Below are positions 26,558 to 34,467 of a stretch of DNA of 64,000 bases, piece by piece. Every line of letters begins with the position of its first letter. The first letter of the stretch is position 1. Below the pieces are notes generated by a model. The model saw nothing but the letters and a program-made list of their open reading frames with translations, did no database searches and was not told where the DNA came from. The DNA is taken from assembly GCF_006874645.1 (NCBI RefSeq), contig NZ_CP030082.1, positions 62,001 to 126,000 on the forward strand. The letters run 5' to 3'. The translations under genes and the position numbers were made by a program. Source of the DNA: Bdellovibrio sp. ZAP7 (GTDB lineage: Bacteria > Bdellovibrionota > Bdellovibrionia > Bdellovibrionales > Bdellovibrionaceae).

Positions 26558-28089
26558 TCCCACATCCTGGGCAGTTGCGGTTTGAATAAAGAATTCACTA
26601 GATCACTACTGGCATCTGGTAATTGAACCGTTTTATAGTTATCCCCCAGATTGTGATTTAGATCAGCAGAAGTACGGTCTGAGGCAAAAACAAAGCTTTC
26701 AGTATTTTCATATGCGATTACGCTAGCGAATGGGACTGCCTTAAGCGTGGAGTTAATAATCGACGCACTTTCATTCGTTGGAAAGTCAAAAACGATAAAT
26801 CCACTCGGGGCTAAACGGTTTTTGATAATGCGATAAAACTCTAAGCTGTAGAGTTTGGAAAGTTCAACACTATAGGGATACGGAAAATCTAAAAAGATTG
26901 CGTCCCAGGATCTTTCGGATTTTCTTAAGAAATGAAAGGCATCATCTGTAATAAGCTCAACACGTTTGTCGCTGAGAGAGTTTTCATTAAGGGCCACCCA
27001 GCGTGCATCTTCTTTGGCCATTTTTAAAATTTGAGGATCCAACTCTACCATTGTGATTTCAGATTCGCCTGGGAGAGTTTTAAGGGCGTCTCTAAGAAGA
27101 AGTCCATCCCCTGCTCCCAAGATGAGGATCTTCTTTGGAATGCTTTGCGCGATCTTTAAAGAACCCTGCAAGAAAGCCTCGTGGTAAGACTTTTCATAAC
27201 GGGAATCAAACTGAAATTGCCCATTTAACCACAGACTAAAAAAAGGACCATTTTCATCGCGCCCATCCACCAGGTCAATTGCTTGGTAGGGACTGAGGTG
27301 TCTGGTGACTTTGATTTCACTATTTAATCCACTGAAGTATTCATTAAGATCATTTTTGCTGGTCACATTCTTAGGGTAATCCCCGTAATAGCGTATTCTT
27401 AAAGAAAGCTGTTGTAGAGGGCTTTGTACTAAAGAGAACAACAGGATGGCTATGATGCCGATCGAAACAATTCTAAAGCGGCTTGTGGTCTTTTGAGTTT
27501 GTGTCGTTAGATACAGACAAACGCCGCCGCTGGCCAGAGCAATCAAGATCGCGGTTCCATAAATTTCAAATCTGGGAATTAAGATCACCGGCACCACGGC
27601 GGAGGCAACCAAAGCTCCAAAGTAGCTGAAGGCAAGAATTTGGTTTAGATGCGTTTGATTGTCTAAATCCTTACGCAATCTAAAGAGCAAAGGAGTTTCA
27701 AATCCAGTTAAGAATCCCAGCGCAAGAGAGATAGATCCCGCTGCCAAAACAAAGATCATCATCAACGGGCCTGCAGGCAGCCGGATTCCTGAAAATTCAA
27801 TTAATTCGAGACTTGGGATAAAAAAAAGATAAGTAACCAGCATGGGAGCGATAGCACCCAGGAACATCAATATCATTTCGATCTTTAATAAATCATGCAG
27901 AGGATTTCTGGCGTTTGCTGACCTCTTACTGCCAAGACCAACTCCGTAAATAAATAAAGCTGAAGAAAGGCAAAAGCCTATGATCTCTTCCTGCAAAAAC
28001 ACCGCAAAGGTTTTGGCCATCAGACTTTGATAAGCAAATCCACAAAATGACAAAGCAAAAGCCAGGGCTTTTAATTTACGATGATCCAT
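26554..28089 (-). CDS. Membrane-spanning spermidine-synthase-like protein
   Basis: A 511-residue fusion. Residues 1-230 hold about seven membrane helices like those preceding spermidine synthase domains in bacteria. The remainder is a SpeE-type Rossmann domain: LWLNGQFQF and YHEAF in the substrate region, ILGAGDGLLLRDA (nucleotide-binding glycine motif), MVELDPQIL, and LDFPYP. The family's usual D-x-x-D-P acid pair in that last motif is reduced to one Asp, so true aminopropyl transfer is uncertain. ATG 28089 is preferred and overlaps the upstream gene by 19 bases; it is coupled to the next gene by ATGA. The pilin-operon context suggests a role in surface-structure assembly or modification. 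Confidence 0.72.
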   Translation of the reverse strand: MDHRKLKALAFALSFCGFAYQSLMAKTFAVFLQEEIIGFCLSSALFIYGVGLGSKRSANARNPLHDLLKIEMILMFLGAIAPMLVTYLFFIPSLELIEFSGIRLPAGPLMMIFVLAAGSISLALGFLTGFETPLLFRLRKDLDNQTHLNQILAFSYFGALVASAVVPVILIPRFEIYGTAILIALASGGVCLYLTTQTQKTTSRFRIVSIGIIAILLFSLVQSPLQQLSLRIRYYGDYPKNVTSKNDLNEYFSGLNSEIKVTRHLSPYQAIDLVDGRDENGPFFSLWLNGQFQFDSRYEKSYHEAFLQGSLKIAQSIPKKILILGAGDGLLLRDALKTLPGESEITMVELDPQILKMAKEDARWVALNENSLSDKRVELITDDAFHFLRKSERSWDAIFLDFPYPYSVELSKLYSLEFYRIIKNRLAPSGFIVFDFPTNESASIINSTLKAVPFASVIAYENTESFVFASDRTSADLNHNLGDNYKTVQLPDASSDLVNSLFKPQLPRMWE

Positions 28090-28763
28090 CTTGCGATTTG
28101 CTCCTCGTAAATTATTAGATTTTGAATAACAGCCCAAGTGACCACTAGAAAAATGACGCTGACTAGAGGAACTTCAAATTTTCTAAGATGCTTATCGTGA
28201 AATCCCCAGACTAATCCACATATCCAGGCAAGTCCGAGATTTGCCAACGCCAGAAAAAGATTCACTTGAAGAGACCCAAACTGGCGGTTTAGAAAAAGTG
28301 CGAACAACAGGCCCGCAATGAACATTCCGAAATAGTCCGCAAAGAGTGCTTTTTCAGTTCTATCACCTGTTGCTGAGTCCGAGTCGAGAATTCGTAGCAA
28401 AAGAGGTAGTTCCATACCAGATAGAAATCCAATGGAGACGATCAGAGCATAGCAAACCGCGGGGGAAATAGATTTCAAATGAACGTCGCTATACACAAAT
28501 AGGAGTGGAGAAACGATTGCCAGCGCCGCAAGAGTAACTTCAATCCAGATGAAAACTTTCTTAGCATTCAACCGAACAGGGGTAAAGTAAGCACCAGCCC
28601 CCATAGATGCGATATAGATCCCGGTTGTTACCGTGTATTGTTGAACAACGTTGCCCCAAAGAACAGAAAGCACATTCGCCAAAACGAGTTCATACGCATA
28701 GCTGCAAAATGCTGTGATAAATACTAGCAGCAAAATGAAGCGAAAGCGAAAAATGCCATTCAT
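28071..28763 (-). CDS. Membrane protein related to the N-terminal half of spermidine-synthase fusions
   Basis: A 230-residue protein with about seven membrane helices and no soluble domain. The helical pattern and short motifs (SYAYELVLANVLSVLWGN, and GMELPLLLRIL comparable to GFETPLLFRLR in the next gene) show it is homologous to the membrane half of the 26554-28089 protein. It starts directly after the stop of the PilX-like gene, with no gap, and overlaps the next gene by 19 bases. The two proteins could form a heteromeric membrane complex carrying one synthase-like domain. No function can be assigned. Confidence 0.7.
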   Translation of the reverse strand: MNGIFRFRFILLLVFITAFCSYAYELVLANVLSVLWGNVVQQYTVTTGIYIASMGAGAYFTPVRLNAKKVFIWIEVTLAALAIVSPLLFVYSDVHLKSISPAVCYALIVSIGFLSGMELPLLLRILDSDSATGDRTEKALFADYFGMFIAGLLFALFLNRQFGSLQVNLFLALANLGLAWICGLVWGFHDKHLRKFEVPLVSVIFLVVTWAVIQNLIIYEEQIARWIIVN

Positions 28764-29542: not shown

Positions 29543-30568
29543 CTAGTTTCTCTTAAGCTGCCCGCTCGGGTAAGAAGGTTTTAAGAAATAAATTAAATCA
29601 TAAGGCCTGCGGTACAATGGACGTCTTTGCGCACGCAAAGTATTGGGGGTTTCTGCAGTTACGCTCATCTGTGCAGATGAAAAACCAAGAACGTTATCTC
29701 TGAAGACCACTCGAATCACGCGCTCAACATCTTTGTAGGGACTTGTGGTCTTACAGGCTGTTTGGGTCATAGCGGCAGGAGGACACCAAGTGAAATCACG
29801 CTTACTATTTGTTTGCGGGAGGTATTCTCTCACCGTCACTTTGAATGTTACGGAGGAAAGACGATAGCGGGGAGACGTGCTCGGGTCCTGATCGGGATTA
29901 TTCTGGTCGAAGCGTTCAACTTCTTTTTCGGTTGTTTGAAAATCGACGATGGAGCCAAACCACAGGTCGTCCCGCGTGGGAGAGATACTGACTGTTCCCG
30001 CAGCCTGAGATTTTCCAAGGTCGATGTATAAAATCCCGAACGTTTTTGCCGTGGGTTTTTGAAAATAAATTCCCGTAGGCAAAAAACGATCTCCGACACT
30101 GGGAACACTCGTGTAGGTGCTGATCAATGTGTCTCGTAAGAAGAAACCAATGGTATCAATAGACGCGGTGGCAGAGGCGGCATTAAACCCTGTGGATGCC
30201 AAATAATCTGCTCTGACAAATCCGGTGTTCTGGCTGGATCCGGAAGGACTCCAGTTGTTAAGATTTTTTCCACTGCCGTCTTCAACGTTAATTCCCTGTG
30301 AAGCAAAGTGTTTCAAGTAAAAGGAAATTTCGTTTAGCTCTGATTCCGATTGGATTCGGTTGGTGATCGCCTCGTTTTGATTCGTGGCCATGCTGATCAA
30401 GGCGCCAACACCATACATAAGCACCGAACCCAGGACGACGGAAAGAAGAAGTTCTACAAGTGAAAAACCTTGTTGACCCAAATACCCACTGTTAGAATTA
30501 AGAAAGCAACTTGATTGGCTTTCTGTGGGGGATTTCAAATGTTTCGTAGAGACAGGTCTATTAATCAT
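29543..30568 (-). CDS. PilW-like prepilin
   Basis: Up to 341 residues. The prepilin signature LGQQG|FSLVELLLSVVLGSVLMYGVGALI has Phe+1 and Glu+5, so it should be cleaved and methylated by a PilD-type peptidase. A long globular PilW-like domain follows. The start is uncertain. ATG 30568 gives a 34-residue leader and runs 30 bases into the divergent gene. TTG 30538 abuts that gene's ATG. TTG 30481 gives a 5-residue leader. None has a good ribosome site. It is the first gene of the minus-strand operon. Confidence 0.75.
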   Translation of the reverse strand: MINRPVSTKHLKSPTESQSSCFLNSNSGYLGQQGFSLVELLLSVVLGSVLMYGVGALISMATNQNEAITNRIQSESELNEISFYLKHFASQGINVEDGSGKNLNNWSPSGSSQNTGFVRADYLASTGFNAASATASIDTIGFFLRDTLISTYTSVPSVGDRFLPTGIYFQKPTAKTFGILYIDLGKSQAAGTVSISPTRDDLWFGSIVDFQTTEKEVERFDQNNPDQDPSTSPRYRLSSVTFKVTVREYLPQTNSKRDFTWCPPAAMTQTACKTTSPYKDVERVIRVVFRDNVLGFSSAQMSVTAETPNTLRAQRRPLYRRPYDLIYFLKPSYPSGQLKRN

Positions 30569-33436
30569 AAAGGTGTCTCGGGCTTTTCTGCTCTTGAGAT
30601 GATGGTTGCGATCGGTATCCTTGCCACGATCTTCATTCTAGCAATGCCTTTCTTTAGCCAACAAGGAAAAATTATCAAAGAGATGAGAACGTCTGCGAGC
30701 TGCCAGGCCGTTCTTGATACAGCCTTCTCGAGAATCAATTCTTTCGGAAACTCTTTAGACAGTTATCAACCAAAAATTAATGCATCAATGGCGAACGCGA
30801 CAGGCGCTATGGCTGCGGGTTCCAGAGTGTTTTTGCCGCCCGATATTCCAGTCGATGCATATGCGTTTGATCCTGATTTTAAAGGTCAAAGAAACAAGAT
30901 GTTTGATCTGGCCCCGGGTCGCATTTTGTATTCTACAAATCCAGGCAAGCAGATTAAAATTCCTCAAAATGGAGGAACAACTAAGAATGTGCCGATTCAG
31001 CACGACGGTATTACATTATATACGCCACTCTTGCTTAAAGGTTCAATGGAGTACCTGGCGACGAAGTACAATTCTGGCTATTGCTCGGCATTCTCTCCCG
31101 TAAAACTGTTAACAGCTGTGGACAGTCAAGCTTTGAACAATCAGTTTCAAGGCGGTCTTAAAAATTTAGATATCTCTATGAAAGTGAATCGCTACGATCT
31201 GGCTTCGAATAATGCCAGTGGTAATTGCGGCACCTTTTGGCCACGACCACGCAACGGTGGTCGTACCAACGTTACTTATGAACCGCAATTTGGCTATTCT
31301 CCGACGACTCGTCAGATAATAGGAATTTTCCCCAGCTGGATGGATGATAAAGATGGATTTCGCGTCACTTTGAGGGCCAACTTTACCAACGACAAGGGCC
31401 AATCAGAAACTTGCGAGGGCACGAAAGATTTTTCTTTGCCAGAAGATAAGCAAAACGTTGTCGATTATTTCTATGACGTAAACTATGTGAAGAATTCGGC
31501 GGCCTCTCCGGGTGCTATCGTTGATAACATCAGTCGTATCAATGGACTTCGCAAAGGGACTGAGTGTTCAGGTAAACCCGATTGCTTAGGACATCCCTTT
31601 GAAACAATTCTGACGAACTTGCAGCCTTGGAATAATAGTCCAAAGTGGCCCGAGAATCGTGATAGGCCACTATGTTCTCAAACGCCTGCGAACTCCATGA
31701 AAATGGTGATCACATTCCGTGTTTACAACACTCAGAAAGATGGCGGCGTCATCCCGATGTGCTTGGATACATCATATCAGTGGTTTAAAGGTACTAAAGG
31801 TAATTGGTGTCCTGGTTCATATAATGGCGGTGCAGAAACAAGCTTTGATAAATCCTGGGACACTCGTTACACAGGCTGGGTTCCTTGCGAACAAATGCAA
31901 TTCTGTAACTCGCGACCAGATAAGGTTGAGGTTATCAAGTCTGCTGACAAGAACTTTAAATTTCCAGGTCTAAATGCGAATCAGCCCTATGTGGAATATA
32001 AATATACTTACGAAAAGATTTCCGGAGACAAAGCGAATCCTCGCATGTGGGGTTGTGAGCTGAAGTTCGGTATTGCTTCAATCGATCTTGCGGGGAATTT
32101 AAGTTACGTTCCTGCTCAAGAAAAAATGATGGACTCCCCTGGTATTGCAGGCGACCGTCGTCCCCCACTCAAAGAAATCAATCCGCATGTCTATTTCAAA
32201 CCGCCGCCTTGTTACACATGTAATTGTAAGCCTTGTAAAGGTGGTAAGGGACTTTTCGGTGGATTGTTTAATTGGATTCTTTTTGCAGTTTTAGTCATCG
32301 TATCCGCGGGTACAGCTTTGGCTGTGACGGCATTGATCACGGCAGCAGTCATCGCCGGGGCAACAGCAGGTGTTCTTTGCTATAATGGTGGTTTGGGTTG
32401 CAGCAGTGATGGTGGTAAAAACTATGCCCCAGATTCGTCGGGAGGAAAATATCGATCCTGCGACGATAGTAACAATGGGTGTAAGTGCGGTAAAAAATGT
32501 AACATCATCAGGCCACCAAGCCCTGGGTGGTCATCGCCACTTGATGATGCGATGGATATTTCTCAGCTAGAAAAGAATTCTTGTGTGCCTGGCAATACTT
32601 TCTATGTCGATAACACTGCTTATTCGAGTTTGAATGGTATTAAACCGATGTTTGGATACAAAACATCCAAAGGACCCGGTAAAGGCTACGATTACAACAT
32701 GGATCCAAATGCGAAAGTTACTCCGGGTGATGAGCTTCTGTATTCCGTGTTTGATTCTAAAAACAAGCAGTTCTGTTATGCGGCTGTTCGTTGTTCCGGC
32801 GGAAAATTCCAAGCTATTAAAGAAAGCAGCGAGATTTCGGGTGATAATAACCTTTATCCACTGATGGGATGTTTCCCGGTCAAAGTGGGTAAGAGAATTG
32901 CCTTTAATAGTGGTAGTCCGGGCATTGCTCAGGGTGGAAACGCTTGCTTGGAAGTTCAGTTTAATAAAGGTCCGCAGAATCCAACGAACCTGAAGCTTTG
33001 GAAGTGGTCTGATTATAACGAACAATGTAGTGTCACCTCCTCAACTGGTTCTTTATCGTCCGATCCGCGCGTGGTCGGTGGGTTCTGTCCAACAACGTCG
33101 ACAACGGCCCTGGTCGGCGCACAGTACAGCAATACCGGAGCTGGATGTTCTAATCCTACTGCCGATCCAAATGATCTGGTGGGAGTGAATTTTGCTTGTA
33201 AGGATACGAAAATTTATTGGGACCCTTGTGCAGCCACGTCATCCAATTCCAAAAACGGTACGATGAGCTGTGCGAAGTGGTGCTATGCAGACTGTAAAGT
33301 CCCTGAATACGTTCCAGAGCATCCTTGGTTGGATGCTCCACACAATGTTCAGCGCTATTACGAAGACATGGGATCGAGTGACGCAGGATTGCCATTCTGC
33401 ACGATGGACCGTACGTTGTTTGATGATAACCTTTAA
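30539..33436 (+). CDS. Very large prepilin-like protein with internal membrane segment
   Basis: A 965-residue protein. The N-terminus carries a class III signal peptide, KGVSG|FSALEMMVAIGILATIFILAM, with Phe+1 and Glu+5. About 560 residues of mostly beta, cysteine-containing sequence follow, then a CYTCNCKPC cluster at about 560-568. A second long hydrophobic stretch lies at about 575-616 (NWILFAVLVIVSAGTALAV then Ala-rich), and a further ~350-residue cysteine-rich domain ends the protein. The size is far beyond a normal pilin and recalls a PilY1-like tip protein, but no PilY1 propeller signature was recognised. ATG 30539 follows GGGGGATTTCAA. It is coupled (2-base gap) to an acyltransferase-like gene. 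Confidence 0.75.
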   Translation: MFRRDRSINHKGVSGFSALEMMVAIGILATIFILAMPFFSQQGKIIKEMRTSASCQAVLDTAFSRINSFGNSLDSYQPKINASMANATGAMAAGSRVFLPPDIPVDAYAFDPDFKGQRNKMFDLAPGRILYSTNPGKQIKIPQNGGTTKNVPIQHDGITLYTPLLLKGSMEYLATKYNSGYCSAFSPVKLLTAVDSQALNNQFQGGLKNLDISMKVNRYDLASNNASGNCGTFWPRPRNGGRTNVTYEPQFGYSPTTRQIIGIFPSWMDDKDGFRVTLRANFTNDKGQSETCEGTKDFSLPEDKQNVVDYFYDVNYVKNSAASPGAIVDNISRINGLRKGTECSGKPDCLGHPFETILTNLQPWNNSPKWPENRDRPLCSQTPANSMKMVITFRVYNTQKDGGVIPMCLDTSYQWFKGTKGNWCPGSYNGGAETSFDKSWDTRYTGWVPCEQMQFCNSRPDKVEVIKSADKNFKFPGLNANQPYVEYKYTYEKISGDKANPRMWGCELKFGIASIDLAGNLSYVPAQEKMMDSPGIAGDRRPPLKEINPHVYFKPPPCYTCNCKPCKGGKGLFGGLFNWILFAVLVIVSAGTALAVTALITAAVIAGATAGVLCYNGGLGCSSDGGKNYAPDSSGGKYRSCDDSNNGCKCGKKCNIIRPPSPGWSSPLDDAMDISQLEKNSCVPGNTFYVDNTAYSSLNGIKPMFGYKTSKGPGKGYDYNMDPNAKVTPGDELLYSVFDSKNKQFCYAAVRCSGGKFQAIKESSEISGDNNLYPLMGCFPVKVGKRIAFNSGSPGIAQGGNACLEVQFNKGPQNPTNLKLWKWSDYNEQCSVTSSTGSLSSDPRVVGGFCPTTSTTALVGAQYSNTGAGCSNPTADPNDLVGVNFACKDTKIYWDPCAATSSNSKNGTMSCAKWCYADCKVPEYVPEHPWLDAPHNVQRYYEDMGSSDAGLPFCTMDRTLFDDNL

Positions 33437-33438
33437 GC

Positions 33439-34467
33439 ATGTCTGAAAAAAGTACGAGAATTTACGGTTTTGATATTCTAAGAATCGCCACGGTGATGGC
33501 GATTCTTTATTTTCACGTCTGGCAGTACACGTTTTTTCAAGACGTGATCTCGCTTCCTGCTGAAATTTCTAACTATCACAACCTTACGGGTTGGGTCGGC
33601 GACGTATTTAAGTACGGCGGTCTTTTCATTGTCGCTTTAAGTTTCTTTTTGATTGGTTTAAAAGTGCGCTCCCAGCACAAAATGAGATTTTTTGTGTTGA
33701 TCGCAGGACTGATAGCTTTGCAGGTTTCAACGGCCGACAATCCTATGGACCCGACAACCTGGGACTGGGATGTTTATTCCTATTTAGTATTATCCTATAT
33801 TCTCGTACTAGCGCTTCCGCGTAAAGCGATGTTGCGATGGCCGTTGATTGTGGCAAGTATCGCGCTGTTGTGTATTCCCTACGAACAATATGCTGCATTA
33901 CTAAATATTCCTGAAGCCGTTCAATTCTCGGGTTGGAATTTAATGCCATGGTTAGCACTGCCGGTTTTGTTTCACTCGGCTGGCGTCTTGTGGTCGCAAA
34001 ACTCCCCACGCCTATTTCAAGTTATGCGCAAGTGGGAGTGGCCAGTGTGGGGTGTTTTGATTGCGTTGCTATTCGTGATGACGCCGGATTATGGACCTTT
34101 TCCCGCGGGACCTGGATACGAGGGCTACGTTTTTAAAATGAAGCCTTTGATGTTCTGGAAGCACTTCATCGGGTTTTCTTTCCTGATGAGGCTAAGCATG
34201 GATCCAATGATTAATTCGGCACTCGCAAGAATCAAAGGAATGTCGCAATTCTCAAATCTTTCATGGAATAAGCACTTGGGTGTTTCGTATTTTATGCATT
34301 TGGCGTTCTTGCCTATGGGACAACATCTGATGGAATTCTGGGGACACTACCCAGGGACGTTTGATTGGTTCTGGTTATTTATTTTTATTGCTGTGGAAAT
34401 CATTGTCAGAGCCATGTTCGCCATGCGCTTAACTGTTAAAACTAAAGTTGCCCAGCTGATGCGCTAG
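33439..34467 (+). CDS. Acyltransferase-3-like polytopic membrane protein (second paralogue)
   Basis: A 342-residue protein with about ten membrane helices, paralogous to the 25490-26557 product: YGFDILRIATVMAILYFHVW at the N-terminus, TTWDWDVYSYL, WNLMPWLALPVL, and FSNLSWNKHLGVSYFMHLAFLP. The Arg and His of the first helix fit an acyltransferase-3-type active site. It starts 2 bases after the giant prepilin stop, so it is translationally linked. The two paralogues close the two divergent pilin operons. It probably modifies a substrate tied to the pilin system; this is inference. Confidence 0.6.
   Translation: MSEKSTRIYGFDILRIATVMAILYFHVWQYTFFQDVISLPAEISNYHNLTGWVGDVFKYGGLFIVALSFFLIGLKVRSQHKMRFFVLIAGLIALQVSTADNPMDPTTWDWDVYSYLVLSYILVLALPRKAMLRWPLIVASIALLCIPYEQYAALLNIPEAVQFSGWNLMPWLALPVLFHSAGVLWSQNSPRLFQVMRKWEWPVWGVLIALLFVMTPDYGPFPAGPGYEGYVFKMKPLMFWKHFIGFSFLMRLSMDPMINSALARIKGMSQFSNLSWNKHLGVSYFMHLAFLPMGQHLMEFWGHYPGTFDWFWLFIFIAVEIIVRAMFAMRLTVKTKVAQLMR

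Follow-up and report, generated by a model that had tools for sequence, protein, structure and literature searches.

The window, a 64,000-nucleotide stretch of a single-contig genome of 4.12 Mb whose source appears to be a Bdellovibrio-type predator, contains a giant prepilin gene surrounded by two smaller prepilin genes, two genes for polytopic proteins related to polyamine enzymes and two for acyltransferase-like membrane proteins (Table 1). The open reading frame (ORF) of the giant prepilin runs from an ATG at 30539 to a TAA ending at 33436, with 'gtggggga' immediately upstream of the start, and has the extent and length that the original prediction gave it. Compared with a 99%-identical ortholog (G017; below, G numbers denote genomes and L numbers loci), the ratio of nonsynonymous to synonymous substitution rates (dN/dS) is 0.019, which identifies the ORF as a real gene; it is under strong purifying selection. 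The comparison with G034 gave a dN/dS of 0.10 at a dS of 2.7, and for G022 and G013 dS was saturated, so the ratio is omitted.

Table 1. Features of the giant prepilin gene and its neighbors in the window (residue numbers refer to the giant protein)
Feature	Coordinates	Strand	Evidence and remarks
Giant prepilin	30539..33436	+	965 residues, 36 Cys; ORF, homologs, dN/dS 0.019
Class III leader peptide, residues 1-15, predicted cleavage between G15 and F16	30539..30583	+	G15 and E20 invariant in 9/9 aligned homologs
Conserved core, residues 371-665, present in distant homologs	31649..32533	+	Matches in G135, G077 and G078; invariant columns
N-terminal Cys arm CYTCNCKPC (558-566)	32210..32236	+	C558 and C561 invariant in 9/9; all four Cys in 7/7
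Second hydrophobic Ala/Gly-rich stretch (575-613)	32261..32377	+	Length and hydrophobicity variable among homologs
C-terminal Cys arm (C614, 621, 641, 648, 650, 654)	32378..32500	+	All invariant in 7/7 orthologs
GspJ/PilW-like prepilin, 341 residues, divergent partner	29543..30568	-	N_methyl 1.3e-5; PRK10557 5e-5; TIGR02532
GspK/PilX-like prepilin without Glu5 (GFAGAMLV), 255 residues	28764..29531	-	Sequence; same-place orthologs; presumed slot
Short polytopic half-protein, akin to PRK03612 membrane part	28071..28763	-	NCBIfam PRK03612 1.4e-34, residues 9-223 of this protein, under cut-off
Long polytopic spermidine-synthase-like protein, 511 residues	26554..28089	-	PF01564 2.2e-17; PRK03612 8.9e-74, under cut-off
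Acyltransferase-3-like membrane protein, 357 residues	25490..26563	-	Weak PF01757 (E 0.058); paralog of 33439-34467
Acyltransferase-3-like paralog directly downstream of the giant gene	33439..34467	+	Paralogy; no Pfam hit of its own

The protein begins with the leader MFRRDRSINHKGVSG followed by the mature start FSALEMMVAIGILATIF; in a longer reading, MFRRDRSINHKGVSG followed by FSALEMMVAIGILATIFILAMPFF is a canonical class III prepilin leader, with Gly at -1, Glu at +5 and a hydrophobic alpha1, as the original prediction had it. In the genome scan, the N_methyl family PF07963 matched this N-terminus with 20.8 bits and E 0.0019, a hit that sits at the family cut-off with neighbors (21.3 vs. 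21.2), and NCBIfam ComGE matched residues 11-65 with E 6.6e-6, under its curated cut-off. When the full-length protein was scanned against Pfam in the ordinary way, no family was listed, and a profile search of the PDB gave 0 matches; neither Pfam nor PHROGs nor the PDB sequences yielded a relative beyond the N-terminus, and calling the protein a new type is thus fair. Equally fair is its description as five times longer than a pilin, since the probable major pilin of the genome, called by its leader, has 188 residues. The genome has a single PilD, of 263 residues. The Cys content of the giant protein, 3.8%, is the highest among the 41 window ORFs of at least 200 residues (median 0.9%).

The CxxCxCxxC cluster, the Cys-rich arms and the internal, roughly 40-residue Ala-rich stretch that had been noticed in the letters were all recovered. 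Apart from alpha1, no other region has a 19-residue window that falls below 2.5 on the hydrophobicity scale applied, and on a membrane-insertion scale the stretch scores like a membrane helix, with -1.24 against -1.25 for alpha1. On the same scale its counterparts score -4.4 in G027, -2.2 in G022, -1.7 in G013, -1.2 in G034, -0.9 in G135, +0.4 in G077 and +3.1 in G065, where the segment has an internal Arg; in G034 it is only ~26 residues long and in G027 it consists of two parts separated by a long loop. As the stretch varies in this way while the Cys arms are kept, a fixed number of membrane crossings across the family seems unlikely. We favor a buried or presented segment framed by disulfides; its insertion into a prey membrane is a possible, purely conjectural, extension of this.

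Relatives of the giant protein were found in 7 of the 66 family genomes by protein search, with identities, besides itself, of 99, 81, 76, 65, 35 and 31%. A profile search at E<=1e-3 gave matches in 28 of 140 order genomes, 7 of them full length; three distant genomes (G135, G077 and G078) share the core, at about residues 371-672, and retain the CYxC, a basic stretch and a hydrophobic segment, and most of the remaining matches extend over no more than a short segment or the N-terminal prepilin part. Across the phylum, 12 of 368 genomes matched at E<=1e-6. The hallmark block of the family reads FKPPPCYxCxC, hydrophobic segment, NGG and a Cys-rich part, and 23 of the 36 Cys are invariant in 7/7 orthologs. 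A related-locus search with the giant protein alone found none, and one with the query A1 found two loci among genome contigs and none among viral contigs. The flanking genes, for PEP carboxylase and a CheX-type protein, were each matched in 23 of the 24 genus genomes and are close together in the four cassette bearers only; no empty site for comparison was therefore found.

The giant gene stands beside the genes of the 341- and 255-residue prepilins, and the trio is kept in 7/7 genomes, that is, in the window and in all six ortholog neighborhoods. Three adjacent prepilins of which one is without Glu5 recall the I-J-K complex, which initiates the filament and has a subunit without Glu5 as its cap (PMC10191384); ComGE, ComGF and ComGG fill the I, J and K rows in Table 1 of that paper. 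In NCBIfam, the N-terminus of the giant protein comes closest to ComGE and the 341-residue prepilin to PRK10557, the latter prepilin with a further, weak hit to ComGF. If the 255-residue prepilin is K and the 341-residue one J, the giant protein would by elimination be I. The cassette of G027 runs in one direction as a single gene string: 341-like, 255-like, short, long, giant and acyltransferase-like. With both starts taken as listed, the head-to-head ORFs of the giant and the 341-residue prepilins share exactly 30 bases (30539-30568) in the window, and the overlap is the same in four orthologs; it would disappear if the 341-residue prepilin began at a TTG near its cleavage site.

The cassette around the trio, absent from the original prediction, includes membrane enzymes, and their linkage to prepilins is the newest part of the finding: a literature search, covering titles and the starts of abstracts, found no prepilin linked to a spermidine-synthase-like protein, the results being genome surveys or unrelated. 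With the long enzyme as query, the 66 family genomes gave 24 hits at E<=1e-30 in 23 loci, all of which we inspected. Fifteen were of the window (cassette) type, with the short partner or a fused form, and 13 of these adjoin prepilins; the contigs of the two misses, L127 and L134, stop a short distance from the gene. The other eight (L135-L142), the control type, represent a second polytopic spermidine-synthase-like type of ~500 residues with a different, recurring neighbor set, and none of them adjoins prepilins. An acyltransferase-like neighbor accompanies all cassette-type loci but L127 and none of the eight. Fisher's test gave P = 9e-5 with the loci on ending contigs counted as misses and 0.002 without the six giant loci, values that serve only as a guide because the genomes are related and the types were split after the neighborhoods had been seen. 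Of the five PF01564 genes of the window genome that pass the cut-off, four have prepilin clusters nearby: the one in the window and three near the 875-residue prepilin of L079.

The cassette enzymes retain the YHE, GxGDG and VELD-type motifs with small variations, such as VDLD in one G062 copy. In spermidine synthase, GxGDG and the acidic VELD-type motif have cofactor-site roles, and the second Asp of DxxDP helps to hold the acceptor amine. At the position of that second Asp, 12 of 14 aligned cassette sequences have an aromatic residue or Leu (Tyr in the window protein; the alignment leaves out G017 and G040), the exceptions being G027 with Asp and one G062 copy with Glu. Asp is present in the SpeE of the window genome and in two proteins of the control type. 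The replacement suggests that the acceptor is probably not putrescine. The polytopic polyamine aminopropyltransferase PRK03612 has the same build, a membrane part followed by a C-terminal spermidine-synthase domain, and the same GxGDG, VELD and YHE motifs. The long cassette enzyme, however, scores 248.7 against the curated cut-off of 472, and the cassette type differs also in the altered DxxDP and in having a separate short partner.

From the leader, the trio, the gene linkage and the conservation, all seen directly, we infer that the giant protein is rather probably a modular minor type IV pilin that belongs to an I-J-K tip-priming trio and displays a binding module, with the neighboring enzymes acting on the prepilins or on the ligand. 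PilD would cleave the giant prepilin after G15, and its alpha1 would dock with those of the J/PilW-like and the Glu5-less K/PilX-like prepilins. The resulting I-J-K type complex would prime and cap a type IV filament, and the disulfide-rich ectodomain of ~900 residues may form an exchangeable binding module displayed on the tip of the filament. The polytopic spermidine-synthase-like and acyltransferase-like proteins may act on the prepilins, or on a ligand, before assembly. Of these elements, the tip-type pilin identity of the giant protein is indirectly well supported by the sequences, because a conserved leader, a trio with GspJ-like and Glu5-less GspK/PilX-like prepilins and a single PilD occur together; to that extent, the earlier suggestion of a pilus-tip or surface protein stands.

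Several observations weigh against this reading. The giant protein is placed in the I slot by elimination and by hits under the cut-off to a generic N-terminal helix, and its second hydrophobic stretch could retain it in the inner membrane. The AlphaFold models show neither a pilin nor a binding fold: two runs gave a predicted local distance difference test score (pLDDT) of 30.1 and 42.1, too poor for fold comparison, probably because too few relatives (two) had been added, and we set aside the helices modeled at 574-588 and ~597-612 as evidence. The linkage to the enzymes is not universal. G065 has the giant and acyltransferase-like genes with no long-enzyme hit, and a trio with a 684-residue prepilin in G012 and two tandem trios in L080 are without a cassette-type enzyme alongside.

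Large prepilin trios without these enzymes are what would be expected if the enzymes served envelope lipids or polyamines in an unrelated pathway and were chance neighbors of a trio that otherwise works as described. We consider this possible but doubtful: the enzymes adjoin prepilins at 13 of the 15 cassette-type loci and at none of the eight control-type loci, by a split that was made post hoc, and most of the PF01564 genes of the window genome are found near prepilin clusters. This explanation is compatible with a tip position of the giant protein, and the likelihoods given to the alternatives do not sum with that of the preferred reading. A bolder version, which we regard as speculative and unlikely, is that the cassette is a new pilin maturation unit in which membrane enzymes derived from spermidine synthase, with their altered acceptor site, and acyltransferases modify the tip prepilins before capping. 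The target would perhaps be the new N-terminal amine after PilD cleavage, facing the cytosolic side, and the disulfide-framed hydrophobic segment of the giant protein, with its basic N-flank, may insert into or press on the prey membrane.

The J- and K-like partners are equally similar to minor pilins of the type II secretion system (T2SS) and of type IVa pili. The trio might cap a short periplasmic pseudopilus on which the large domain picks out cargo for secretion, a role proposed for GspHIJK, in place of gripping prey; HIJK interacts directly with effectors (PMC10191384), and the genome has a GspGHIJ-like set of its own. None of the cassette genes, however, was recognised as encoding a secretion ATPase, a secretin or a cargo protein, and we think such a cargo adaptor improbable. 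The reading to which we give the least weight, as quite improbable, is that the second hydrophobic stretch is a true membrane anchor and that the giant protein remains an inner-membrane factor for assembly or signaling. The insertion score, nearly that of alpha1 in the window protein, speaks for it. Against it are the short segment of G034 and the scores of G065 and G077, by which the spans would be odd or even in number depending on the ortholog, yet both Cys arms are kept. Basic residues, moreover, lie on the N-side of the stretch; by the positive-inside rule, basic flanks are expected on the cytoplasmic side, and here the N-side would face the periplasm.

Among known systems, the PilY1/PilC tip adhesin likewise is a large, presumed tip protein, but PilY1 is not a pilin and its family PF05567 is unmatched in the giant protein. 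The PilY1-like part of the original prediction thus fell away, as PF05567 has no hit at E<=1 in the window genome. A survey of the 66 family genomes gave no PF05567 hit either, but the control rang in no control genome, and the absence of PilY1 is only suggestive; genomes without the giant protein likewise have no hit, and we make no claim that it replaces PilY1. No TadE-, TadF- or TadG-type Pfam family matched the three prepilins at E<=1.

The preferred reading of an I-J-K tip has its closest parallels elsewhere. GspI-GspJ-GspK and PilHIJK also have a J-like and a Glu5-less K-like member, but in the cassette it is the I-slot subunit that would be giant, whereas in the T2SS the extra domain is on K (PMC8179133). 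Modular pilins can carry adhesive domains, and PilB and PilC of Streptococcus sanguinis similarly combine a prepilin N-terminus with a large C-terminal module that is likely shown at the tip (PMC8179133). The module of the giant protein differs in that it matches no known domain and that its Cys arms enclose a hydrophobic stretch. At 965 residues, the protein also exceeds in length the 860-residue example presented as the most extreme for its number of extra domains (PMC8179133). Under the strict definition in that paper, the extra module is a recognised domain; for the giant protein no Pfam, PDB or PHROGs match was found. Myxococcus xanthus has four minor-pilin Tips through which it detects different prey and kills them; every Tip includes a large member and many predicted disulfides, and a Tip-like structural analogue was reported in Bdellovibrio bacteriovorus (PMC12075869). 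The Kil Tips (KilL/KilM/KilN) share with our case the predatory host, here a presumed one, several paralogous minor-pilin trios, a large member with a distal domain and the many predicted disulfides, but they are TadE/F/G-like, whereas the cassette prepilins are not Tad by Pfam, a comparison at the sequence level only; the text consulted of PMC12075869 mentions no enzyme genes for Kil. If the proposed role is right, Bdellovibrio-like predators would have several alternative tips for their pili, a parallel to Kil of Myxococcus but on a non-Tad (N_methyl) filament, and the cassette would give a concrete gene set for testing prey grip or selection. The recurrent linkage of prepilin trios to membrane spermidine-synthase-like and acyltransferase-like proteins would then suggest a kind of pilin modification of which the literature search gave no instance.

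The window genome has further large-prepilin trios, with large members of 875, 1060 and 1037 residues (L079 9265-11892; L080 2988-6170 and 9142-12255, at about 1.82 and 1.85 Mb of G000), an arrangement resembling the multiple Tips of Myxococcus (PMC12075869). Their large members are without Glu5 and the enlarged slot is therefore K. Each trio is followed by an exported protein of ~400 residues with a common CFGTNLR motif. Very large Cys-rich prepilins recur across the order, with prepilin-like ORFs of 1190 residues and 72 Cys in G139 (L052 9384-12956) and of 1047 residues and 58 Cys in G138 (L049 1521-4664). In G012, of the same genus, the 684-residue prepilin has 26 Cys and is followed by a PilW-like prepilin and a 419-residue protein with 20 Cys (L053 9264-13283). 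One more prepilin-like trio of the window genome (L082 8901-11946, at about 3.167 Mb of G000) has members of 309, 339 and 347 residues, each with exactly 8 Cys.

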